From NCBI GenBank assembly GCA_016871015.1, contig VFZX01000040.1, forward strand, positions 1 to 32,693: a DNA stretch of 32,693 nt. The letters run 5' to 3'. The notes beneath the pieces were generated by a model. The model was not told the origin of the DNA, made no database searches, and saw only the letters and a program-made list of their open reading frames with translations. The number at the start of each line of letters is the position of its first letter. The first letter of the stretch is position 1. Of this stretch, positions 12,967 through 15,519 are shown piece by piece. This stretch comes from Acidobacteriota bacterium. Its GTDB lineage: Bacteria; Acidobacteriota; Terriglobia; Bryobacterales; Bryobacteraceae. The translations under genes and the position numbers were made by a program.

Positions 12967-13775
12967 CTACAAACCTTCGCTGAATCCCCAGCTGAAGTTC
13001 GGACGGCGGACGGGCAGGTAGATGCGAAAGGTGGCGCCGCGCCCCGGTTCACTATCGAGGAAGATCTGCCCCTGCATGTTCTTGAGCACGCGGCTCACGA
13101 TTGCCAGCCCCATGCCGGACCCGCGGCCCTTGGGCTTGGTGGTGAAGAACGGCTCGAAGATGTGAGCCTGGATGTCGTGCGGGATTCCGGACCCGGTGTC
13201 GCGGACAGTCAGCCGGATCGCCGTATCAGCGAATTCGCCGCCGCCTGGGTGATCCGCCGTCTCAAACGAAAGCTGCCCGCCGCCGGGCATGGCGCGCAGG
13301 CGTTCAGCGCAAGATTCAGCAGAGCCTGGTGGATCTGGCCCGGATCACCATTGATAAACGGCGTCGCCGCATCGAGCGAAAGTTGGATCCGGATGCGCGG
13401 CTAAACGGACCGCTTGAGCAATTCGGCTACTTCGTGCACCGAGGCATGCAGGTCCACGGGCATGAGGCGCCTGATGCCGCCGCGCGTGAAATTCATCAAC
13501 TGGCTGGAAAGCTCGATCGCCCTCTCGGAAGCCTTGCAGATGACGGCGGCCGCATCGCGCGACTCCTGTCCGGCGTCCTCGGCCGACTGGATCAAGGCCG
13601 CGTGGCCGAGAATGCCGGTCAAAATGTTGTTGAAGTCGTGGGCCAGTCCCCGCGCGAAGAGGTGAAGATTGTCCTCGGTGGTCTCAAGAACCTGCGCCGC
13701 CCGGCGGTTCCGCTCCAGTTCAGCCTGGAGCGCCTGAATATGCTCTCGAAGCTGAGACAGCTCCGGTTCTGGCAT
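12967..13775 (-). pseudogene. Cytosolic histidine kinase, broken by a stop codon and a one-base deletion
   Basis: Read across three segments, this is a small two-component kinase without a sensor domain. It has a coiled-coil start (MPEPELSQLREHIQALQAEL), a dimerisation/phospho-acceptor helix with GLAHDFNNILTGILGH, and an ATPase domain with VRDTGSGIPHDI and GSGMGLAIVSRVL. The frame is interrupted twice. TAG at 13401-13403 falls after LLKRSV, and the same frame then resumes with PRIRIQLSLDAATPFINGDP. At about 13291-13295 the expected N-A-C-D-A-M-P-G-G-G is spelled TGCGCGCCATG. Adding one A gives TGC GAC GCC ATG, the normal family sequence. So there is one nonsense change and one single-base loss. 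No response regulator is adjacent. The stop abuts the convergent glycosyltransferase gene with no spacer. Confidence 0.8.
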
Positions 13776-13868: not shown

Positions 13869-14354
13869 ATGCCGCTGGGCTGGCAGGAAACCATCTTCAT
13901 CTTCGTCCTTGCCTTGCTCGTTTTCGGCCCCAAGAAGCTGCCGGAATTGGGCAAGACCATTGGCAAGGCGATGACGGAGTTCCGGCGCGCCTCGAGCGAG
14001 CTCAAGTCCACTTGGGATCGTGAGATGCACGCGTTGGAAAAGGAAACCGAGTCGGTGCGGGAAGCCACGCAGCAGGTCGACAATCAGCTTCAGACCTCCT
14101 ACGATGACGGCTATTCCTACTATGACTCAAACTACGAGTACAATCAGGGTTCGACTCCCTCGAATCCCGACGGCTCGGCTACCGTAAGCGAATCCGCATC
14201 TCAGGACGCTGAACAGACCGCTACCGCTACTGCCTCCACCGAGGTTGCCGCAGCTCCCGAATCGACTGAAGCCTCTCCGGAAACGGCGCCCCCGCCACCT
14301 GCCGGAGCCGCTAGCGATTCCAGCTACAAACCGGCGGCCCCGGTAAGCGCCTAG
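13869..14354 (+). CDS. tatA: Twin-arginine translocase subunit TatA/TatB with a long tyrosine-rich tail
   Basis: A 161-residue Tat subunit. The first part is canonical: a short N-terminal membrane helix (ETIFIFVLALLVF), the GPKKLPELGKTIGKAM hinge (F-G-P-x-K-L-P-E-L), and an amphipathic helix with FRRASSELKSTW. From about residue 75 the protein leaves the family norm. A Tyr/Asp-rich run (SYDDGYSYYDSNYEYNQ, about 77-93) is followed by a low-complexity Ser/Ala/Glu/Pro tail. Typical TatA proteins are 60-90 residues. TatA and TatB cannot be separated here, and the length with GPKKLPELGK could suit either. The ATG follows AAGGAG. The preceding frame is open to 13329 but is antisense to the kinase. 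tatC follows 31 bases later. Confidence 0.88.
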   Translation: MPLGWQETIFIFVLALLVFGPKKLPELGKTIGKAMTEFRRASSELKSTWDREMHALEKETESVREATQQVDNQLQTSYDDGYSYYDSNYEYNQGSTPSNPDGSATVSESASQDAEQTATATASTEVAAAPESTEASPETAPPPPAGAASDSSYKPAAPVSA

Positions 14355-14385
14355 CGAGACCGGCGCTCGTTCGCGACTGAGACCA

Positions 14386-15519
14386 ATGAGTTCGGAAGAC
14401 AAAAAGCAGGCCCCGGCCCCTGAGGGGTCCGGACCGCCAGCGGATACAACCGTTTACCACGATCAGGCGACGGACGCGACGAGCGCCTACACCTATTACG
14501 ACGACTACGGCTACGAGCAGAGTTCCCCGGAAACCGCGGTCGAAACGGCGGCCCCTGAGGCAACCGCCGTCGTTCCCCACTCCACTCCTGCCGGGCCACC
14601 TCCGCCACCTCCGCCGTCCGAGCCGCAAGAGGATGAAGAGGACGACGGCATGCTCCGTATGTCGTTCCTCGAACACCTCGAGGAGTTGCGGGCCCGGATC
14701 CTCAGCGCCTTAATCGGCATGGGCGTCGCCTTCGTCGCCTGCATCGGGTTCTCCGAACGGATCTGGAGCGCCATCCAGGGTCCGGCAACGGAGGCTCTCA
14801 AGGCTGCCGGGGTCGTGCCCCCAAAGCTGGCGGTCACAACGCCGACCGAGGCGTTCTCGATCATCTGGGTGAAGGTGCCCGTGCTGGTGTCGCTGTTCCT
14901 GGCCTCTCCCTGGATCCTCTACCAGGTCTGGTCCTTCGTCTCGCCGGGATTGTACAAACACGAGCGCAAGTGGGCCGCCCCCTTTGTGATCAGCTCCGCG
15001 TCGTTGTTCGTGATTGGCGGCGCGTTTGCCTATTTCGTCGCCTTCCCTCTAGGACTCGGATTCCTGCTCGGCATCGCGACCGGCAACGACCTCACGGCGG
15101 TGGTGACCATCACCGAGTATTTCGACCTGTTCTTCAACGTCACCCTCGGACTGGGGATCGTTTTCGAGCTGCCGATCCTGATCTTCTTCCTGTCACTGCT
15201 GAGGATCGTCACACCGGCGTTTTTGATGCGGAACTCCCGCTACGCGATCCTGATAATCGTCATCGTCGCGGCGGTTTTGACACCCACACCGGACGTCATC
15301 AACCTGATGTTGATCTCGGTGCCGATGATGGTTCTCTATTTTGCGGGAGTCCTCGCCAGCTACCTCCTGTTCCTGAGCCGGGAGAACAAGAAGTTCCCCT
15401 GGATGTTGATTCTGCTTGGACTGATTGGCGTCCTGGCGGTCACGGCTTCGTTCGTCTTCGCGGCGGTCCGGGTCTACGGATTCAGGCTCGTGGACCAGTG
15501 GCCGTACCTCGTGAAATAG
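14386..15519 (+). CDS. tatC: Twin-arginine translocase subunit TatC with an N-terminal extension
   Basis: A 377-residue protein, where most TatC proteins are 240-280. Residues 1-88 are an unusual disordered extension: a Tyr/Asp cluster (YTYYDDYGYEQ, about 34-44), a poly-proline stretch (PPPPPPPSEP), then acidic residues. The canonical core starts at MSFLEHLEELRARI, the cytosolic segment that recognises the twin-arginine signal. Six membrane helices follow, with FVSPGLYKHERKW and LTPTPDVINLMLISVPM as family landmarks. The tail is short. With tatA it gives a minimal two-gene export system. The DUF1501 protein in this window carries a TRRDFF motif and is a candidate substrate. Confidence 0.93.
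   Translation: MSSEDKKQAPAPEGSGPPADTTVYHDQATDATSAYTYYDDYGYEQSSPETAVETAAPEATAVVPHSTPAGPPPPPPPSEPQEDEEDDGMLRMSFLEHLEELRARILSALIGMGVAFVACIGFSERIWSAIQGPATEALKAAGVVPPKLAVTTPTEAFSIIWVKVPVLVSLFLASPWILYQVWSFVSPGLYKHERKWAAPFVISSASLFVIGGAFAYFVAFPLGLGFLLGIATGNDLTAVVTITEYFDLFFNVTLGLGIVFELPILIFFLSLLRIVTPAFLMRNSRYAILIIVIVAAVLTPTPDVINLMLISVPMMVLYFAGVLASYLLFLSRENKKFPWMLILLGLIGVLAVTASFVFAAVRVYGFRLVDQWPYLVK

Follow-up and report, generated by a model that had tools for sequence, protein, structure and literature searches.

A tyrosine-rich acidic motif in the tail of a TatA-type protein is conserved across an acidobacterial order and evolves separately from a similar cluster in TatC

The long tail of a TatA-family protein encoded beside tatC in an acidobacterial genome carries an acidic tyrosine cluster that is present in 172 of 179 relatives at the level of the order (Bryobacterales), and the pattern of its conservation points to selection for a tyrosine-specific acidic motif. 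A cluster of similar composition in the N-terminal tail of TatC is found in 86 of the same 179 relatives, and its changes are nearly always unaccompanied by a change in the TatA tail. The stretch analysed (the window) comprises 32,693 nucleotides of contig VFZX01000040.1. Its initial annotation had singled out the two motifs, which prove to be conserved beyond the genus, and had suggested that they might bring TatA and TatC together or serve as a shared docking site. The relevant features are as follows.

13869..14354, + strand: TatA-family gene (161 residues), which adjoins tatC and encodes an FGP/LP 'TatAbasal' signature and a long tail
14097..14147, + strand: Tyr/Asp cluster of the TatA tail, residues 77–93, SYDDGYSYYDSNYEYNQ, with six tyrosines (from the sequence and the conserved columns)
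14178..14219, + strand: second conserved block of the TatA tail, residues 104–117, from column frequencies (order consensus approximately STVSASATQGAES)
14386..15519, + strand: tatC gene (377 residues; Pfam TatC, 209.9 bits)
14386..14655, + strand: disordered N-terminal extension of TatC, residues 1–90, outside the Pfam domain and with low pLDDT
14488..14520, + strand: Tyr/Asp cluster of TatC, YTYYDDYGYEQ, residues 35–45, with five tyrosines and a sixth at residue 24
15400..15471, + strand: extra hydrophobic helix of TatC after TM6, residues 339–362, a seventh transmembrane helix as predicted by AlphaFold2

The Pfam domain TatA_B_E covers residues 3–48 of the 161 residues of the TatA-family protein (62.4 bits against a cut-off of 21) and the Pfam TatC domain covers residues 96–313 of the 377 residues of TatC (cut-off 25.1); both tyrosine motifs fall outside these domains. 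The AlphaFold2 model of the TatA-family protein has a short helix (residues 5–19) and a long helix (residues 24–79), followed by a disordered tail that starts within the tyrosine cluster and has pLDDT values below 50 at residues 89–142 and 144–152. The N-terminal tail of TatC has pLDDT values below 50 at residues 1–10, 13–21, 32–47 and 49–57. These models agree with the earlier description of both tails as disordered. The motif positions given at that time were correct for TatA, while those for TatC (34–44) were one residue off. Both tails had also been regarded as additions that ordinary Tat proteins lack, which holds for the TatC N-tail of about 90 residues but not for the TatA tail, as a long tail is usual in TatB (the Escherichia coli TatB chain in 9dzz has 171 residues). 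From the established Tat topology, both tails would lie on the cytosolic side, as had been assumed.

The TatC model has the TatC fold: Foldseek matched it to seven chains of TatC, TatBC or TatAC entries, among them 9e07, 9dzz and 4b4a, with E values of 2.3e-9 to 6.4e-8. The tatC gene of the window is the sole TatC match in the 8.66 Mb genome, and together with the adjoining tatA-type gene it probably encodes the Tat receptor pair of the order. The pair shares its domains, gene order and fold with the TatBC receptor (TatA-family protein plus TatC). It differs from that receptor in the tyrosine/acidic tail motif, in the N-tail of TatC, in the additional hydrophobic helix at the TatC C-terminus and in having an FGP/LP 'TatAbasal' signature instead of TatB.

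The subunit type of the long protein was assessed from models, motifs and gene order. The NCBIfam models tatAE and tatB both match below cut-off (47.1 against 56.5 for tatB), and PRK14861 ('twin arginine translocase protein A') matches just above its own cut-off (62.7 against 62). In 176 aligned proteins the columns F19, G20, P21, L24, P25 and F38 are occupied at 99–100%. The long protein thus carries the signature described for TatAbasal (F-G-P, L-P and a terminal Phe; PMC5201420) and not that described for TatB (an X-G-P hinge and an amphipathic helix without an end Phe; PMC5201420). Gene order reads as TatB: in the genome of the window the long gene lies beside tatC on contig C40 and a short gene lies on contig C592. 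The latter (L002; C592:2436-2588) encodes a TatA-family protein of 55 residues with an FGG hinge and no tyrosine. At least two TatA-family matches were found in 59 of 61 order genomes, with adjacency to tatC being read in the fetched loci. Second-gene loci were read in 31 cases, namely that of the window genome and the 30 top-scoring matches: a short protein with an FGG/IP signature and no tyrosine could be read in 26, the long protein turned up in two, and the remaining three were not usable. Of the chains with solved structures, TatB of M. xanthus (9e03) is the best sequence match of the long protein. The arrangement given for Acidobacteria/Solibacteres, '(B)C <-> A2' (PMC3827258), fits a role like that of TatB as far as gene order goes. 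Since the motif rules read 'TatAbasal' and not TatB, it is gene order that supports a receptor role, and on this ground the long protein is probably a TatA-type protein in the TatB-like place of the receptor.

The TatC loci came from GTDB contigs, of which 80 out of 141 were kept, and from genomes at the level of the family (a match in 146 of 150), the order (61 of 61), the class (148 of 151) and the phylum (146 of 149), with some further regions added. A part of these matches was read as DNA, 296 loci in all, with a small share from the class and phylum; TatC was present in 295, giving 243 distinct TatC cores. These cores form the rows of the counts below and are not independent species, several being nearly identical. 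Coverage placed 185 loci among the order-level relatives, from which six were dropped to leave 179: four with a TatC N-tail that was out of frame or unreadable (L038, L228, L280 and L281) and two without TatA in the locus (L039 and L051). L099, in which the TatA frame is broken, is counted among the 179 and was excluded from tree states and alignments. L071, which has no TatA in its own locus, was placed by coverage among the 58 other rows and is probably a cut member of the order, judging by its C-terminal helix; setting it aside leaves 57 outsiders, four of them without TatA in the locus. A cluster was scored where at least three tyrosines fell within 20 residues.

In the window, the TatA-family protein and TatC each have six tyrosines in one 20-residue stretch. 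This density was reached by none of the 296 open reading frames in a 400-kb sample of that genome, and by one of 320, one of 296 and two of 314 in samples of equal size from three other genomes. Across the 8.66 Mb genome, DNA patterns of the two motifs match at no other position, the second pattern having been allowed two mismatches with one match of its reversed control. No third protein with the motif was found in the genome by the two patterns, nor by a looser tyrosine-cluster search among the open reading frames in 400 kb of it. A search for plasmid-borne relatives gave two records that match residues 3–50 only, with the tail in neither.

The two motifs are alike in composition and not in the order of their letters, so that the resemblance first noted stands for composition alone. 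When the motifs of TatA and TatC were aligned, 279 of 5000 letter shuffles scored equally well or better, which is not significant at the 5% level, and the mean z over 83 pairs was 0.92. A duplicated or homologous motif is therefore unsupported.

The TatA-tail cluster is conserved at the level of single tyrosines. In the alignment of 176 TatA proteins, tyrosine occupies four columns at 79–90% and two more at 52–57%. Over 4000 random pairs of TatA tails, the proportion of identical aligned cells was 68% for Tyr, 40% for Gly, 39% for Ala, 37% for Asp and 31% for Pro. MAFFT favours the alignment of tyrosines, but proline is rewarded similarly, and given its low retention alignment bias alone is a poor account of the value for tyrosine. 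An alignment-free measure leads in the same direction: the number of tyrosines per TatA tail is under-dispersed, with a variance/mean of 0.46, the lowest of 12 residues. The zone consists of 25% Tyr, 18% Ser and 16% Asp, with 0.6% Lys and Arg together and hardly any Phe or Trp (Y:F:W of 944:11:3, compared with 388:10:2 in TatC). All 171 TatA clusters tested are net negative; Lys or Arg occurs between the first and last tyrosine in nine of the 171 and within a wider 24-residue window in 66. The tyrosine codons are mixed (823 TAC and 336 TAT), which indicates that it is the protein that is conserved and not a DNA repeat. Taken together, the retention of tyrosine above other residues, its under-dispersion and the near absence of Phe and Trp point, at the level of sequence, to selection on the TatA tail for a tyrosine-specific acidic motif.

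Seven members of the order lack the TatA cluster, five of them in the one clade that contains the genus g24. Outside the order, among the 57 rows (four without TatA), there is one TatA cluster, one TatC cluster and no row with both. Two further blocks of the TatA tail are conserved in the order after the tyrosine cluster, EGTVA and that at residues 104–117, of which the copy in the window species has diverged from the order consensus.

In the 86 rows that bear it, the TatC cluster has a consensus of approximately Y-Y-D-D-P-Y, in which tyrosine fills one column at 86% and another at 95%. The letter order differs from that of the TatA consensus. Missed start codons do not account for its absence elsewhere: none of the 93 negative rows hides a cluster where the frame is open within 80 residues above the start used. 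Only two negative rows have an N-tail shorter than 40 residues, L137 (36 residues) and L178 (24 residues). In L178 the match to TatC is truncated (coverage 215), which makes its scoring as absent, as one of the 88 rows with the TatA cluster only, unsafe. In family f8, outside the order, L197 and L199 have short tyrosine runs in the TatC N-tail (IYDYDYGG and PYSGYSGG) together with a short, tyrosine-free TatA tail; these runs were apparently gained independently.

The initial annotation had named a survey of co-occurrence as a check on its proposal. Among the 179 order-level rows, 84 have both clusters, 88 the TatA cluster only, five neither and two the TatC cluster only, these last being L099, with its broken TatA frame, and L181, which has two tyrosines at that place. 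Of the 58 others, 51 have neither, five come from loci without TatA, and the other two bear a single cluster, that of TatC in L197 and that of TatA in L211. Independent occurrence in relatives, which the initial annotation had named as evidence against its proposal, is largely what the 88 rows with the TatA cluster only show. A FastTree tree of TatC cores was calculated for 191 rows, in which 68 of 188 inner branches are well supported. By parsimony, the TatC cluster changed at least 24 times and the TatA cluster six times. Eleven supported independent pairs have different states of the TatC cluster; among these, the TatA cluster was on average unchanged in 10.1 and changed in the same direction in 0.9. 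Independent contrasts of the tyrosine counts in TatA and TatC gave r = -0.105 (p = 0.21); the mean count in TatA is 7.0 without the TatC cluster and 6.2 with it, a weak trend that the contrasts do not confirm. A partner-match score was 29.7 for own partners and 29.1 for strangers, the former being reached by 679 of 5000 permutations. Co-evolution of the clusters is rejected on these four comparisons (parsimony changes, independent pairs, contrasts and matched against mismatched scores).

Counts of changes alone cannot separate gain from loss. In the sister family f3, however, the TatC cluster is present in all 16 rows and the TatA cluster in 15 (the exception being L181). As this family carries both, both clusters are probably, by parsimony, ancestral to the order, with the TatC cluster having been lost repeatedly.

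Tails after the amphipathic helix of E. coli-type Tat proteins have been called unconserved and dispensable (PMC13186574), and what follows this helix in TatB is given as disordered or mobile, in passages that deal with no tail motif (PMC13323110). Against this published view, a whole order conserves a Tat tail down to individual tyrosines, so that the function of such a tail becomes testable by a few tyrosine substitutions; the independent losses of the TatC cluster provide natural comparisons with and without it. In the full-text literature, with most subscription journals outside its scope, no paper was found on an N-terminal extension of TatC in Acidobacteria, on a tyrosine-rich TatA or on TatC of Bryobacterales, and for a TatC with seven transmembrane helices the only match was one general review.

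The reading that we favour, tentatively, is that the acidic tyrosine tail is a weak multivalent site that catches a positively charged partner in the cytosol. The motif, tyrosine-specific, acidic and poor in Lys and Arg, directly follows the long amphipathic helix of the TatA-type protein. Several tyrosines together with Asp and Glu on this flexible tether could catch such a partner through cation–π and charge interactions and keep it near the translocase. As likeliest partners we regard the short TatA, through its basic amphipathic helix, or the twin-arginine region of substrate signal peptides. In TatC, the cluster may be an accessory second sticker of the same kind, ancestral and with many losses; being lost so often, it would add strength and not be an obligate mate. 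The persistence of the TatA cluster where the TatC cluster is lost supports the capture site. Analogies for it are the motifs of the plant factors STT1 and STT2 that bind twin arginines and the π–cation contacts of the synaptophysin tail, both described below. Against it stand the binding site for signal peptides that TatC already has, the Lys or Arg in the wider windows of 66 of 171 TatA clusters and the published view of Tat tails as dispensable. Within this proposal the cytosolic side, the sticker chemistry and the receptor role are what we infer, alongside the observed conservation, predicted disorder, tyrosine specificity and evolutionary uncoupling.

A higher load of Tat substrates in cluster-bearing genomes found no support in a count of Tat signals with TIGR01409, in which at most 137 first-look candidates were scored per genome in 46 selected genomes. 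The median number of matches was 32 in 14 genomes with both clusters and 33 in 18 genomes outside the order, with no excess in the former; per Mb the values were 5.22 and 6.92 (p = 0.31). All 28 order genomes taken together have fewer Tat signals per Mb than the 18 outsiders (p = 0.028). The 14 genomes classed as lacking the TatC cluster include one, G024, that also lacks the TatA cluster. A crude Tat-signal scan of four 400-kb samples had at first pointed to a higher load; it gave 14 of 296, 16 of 320, 8 of 296 and 4 of 314, with many false positives by eye.

Alternatively, tyrosine–tyrosine stickers might make TatA-type tails self-associate and so concentrate the subunits at the membrane in a condensate-like manner, which TatC may join. 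The tail is tyrosine-rich, disordered and multivalent, and a constant TatA cluster with an optional TatC cluster would fit. The tyrosine-repeat cytosolic tail of synaptophysin offers a precedent by analogy: it self-associates via its tyrosines, acts by π–cation contacts and is likewise tyrosine-rich, disordered and negative on a membrane protein (PMC8424992). Synaptophysin is an unrelated animal protein with 10 repeats, whereas the Tat tail has a single cluster of about six tyrosines, a low valence for self-association. The net negative charge of every TatA cluster would also oppose it unless a counter-ion or partner were present, and we consider self-association unlikely.

It is less likely still that the tail docks a dedicated, order-specific cytosolic helper such as a chaperone, a protease adaptor or a membrane-stress protein, although the two conserved blocks that follow the tyrosine cluster are as would be expected in a multi-motif docking tail.

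A more elaborate form of the capture site, in which a seven-helix TatC and an antenna tail that catches twin-arginine signals (or TatA) before the TatC site make up a distinct form of Tat, is improbable. If it were true, the antenna would be a built-in bacterial counterpart of the condensate-forming sorting factors STT1 and STT2 of plants, which through acidic and hydrophobic motifs (WEEPD and LVP-W) within disordered regions bind the twin arginines of thylakoid Tat signals (PMC8740050). The likeness lies in disordered acidic/hydrophobic motifs and is an analogy of working only, with binding of twin arginines being proposed for the tails described here. STT1 and STT2 are soluble ankyrin proteins, for which no homology is claimed, while these tails belong to the translocase itself.

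That the motifs of TatA and TatC bind each other and so join the two proteins, as originally suggested, we judge very improbable. The genes are adjacent, family f3 keeps the two clusters almost throughout, the five order rows that lack the TatA cluster in the co-occurrence survey lack that of TatC as well, and alignment of the whole tails is slightly above that of shuffled ones, which scored as high in 22 of 2000 cases. On the other side, the TatA cluster stands alone in nearly half of the order-level rows, changes in the status of TatC occur nearly always without a change in TatA, the numbers of tyrosines in the two proteins show no co-variation and the match with the own partner is no better than that with a stranger. 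Further, both clusters are net negative in all 83 pairs tested. With TatC changing while TatA stays, with no co-variation and with strangers matching equally well, a dedicated TatA–TatC dock is unlikely. Capture of a third, positively charged partner or association of the TatA tails with one another is the better fit, and the shared docking site of the initial annotation may hold for such a third partner.

Phosphorylation of the tyrosines, as in the tails of bacterial tyrosine kinases, with a resulting switch in Tat activity, is more doubtful again. It would explain why Tyr is kept and Phe excluded, and BY-kinases autophosphorylate a tyrosine-rich motif that is likewise on a C-terminal tail (PMC3795738). 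The Tat proteins differ in having no kinase domain. A match to TIGR01007 above the cut-off was found in 39 of 44 selected genomes and lacking in five; three genomes of family f3 without such a match (G153, on one contig, G154 and G160) have both clusters. This persistence of the motif in cluster-bearing genomes without a kinase match weakens the case for phosphorylation by a BY-kinase. The literature matches on tyrosine phosphorylation of Tat concern other subjects, as judged by their titles and the beginnings of their abstracts.

Least probable is drift of functionless low-complexity sequence, the alternative that the initial annotation had itself raised: the tails are rich in Ala, Ser, Thr and Pro and variable in length, the TatC cluster is often gained or lost and most of the TatA-cluster-less members share one clade, but for TatA the tyrosine retention, the under-dispersion and the near-universal presence in the order reject it, while for the TatC cluster alone it is less firmly excluded.

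TatC is described as having six transmembrane helices (PMC13186574). The TatC of the window departs from this description in the AlphaFold2 model, which adds a helix at residues 339–362, and it is a variant that is still a member of the family. By hydropathy, 178 of the 179 order-level rows have a hydrophobic C-terminal stretch, which none of the 57 outsiders has (with L071 set aside), and the TatC of the order is probably a seven-helix protein as modelled. The basic loop RENKKFPW before the extra helix suggests that this helix would run outward, with the C-terminus predicted to be outside. TatA and TatB bind at the TM5/TM6 site of TatC (PMC5201420); the extra helix, if real, would carry the C-terminus of TatC across the membrane directly after TM6 of this site.

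The C-terminal extension of TatC (15388-15519) is conserved and mostly ends in W-P-[FY]-L. Three g24 genomes (G118, G138 and G171; loci L138, L143 and L196) have a tandem pair of tatC genes. Upstream of the TatA-family gene, on the - strand at 12967-13775, there are pieces that by eye resemble a histidine kinase. The frame looks broken, as the pieces are set apart by a stop codon and a shift of frame; either the gene has decayed or the assembly is in error here.
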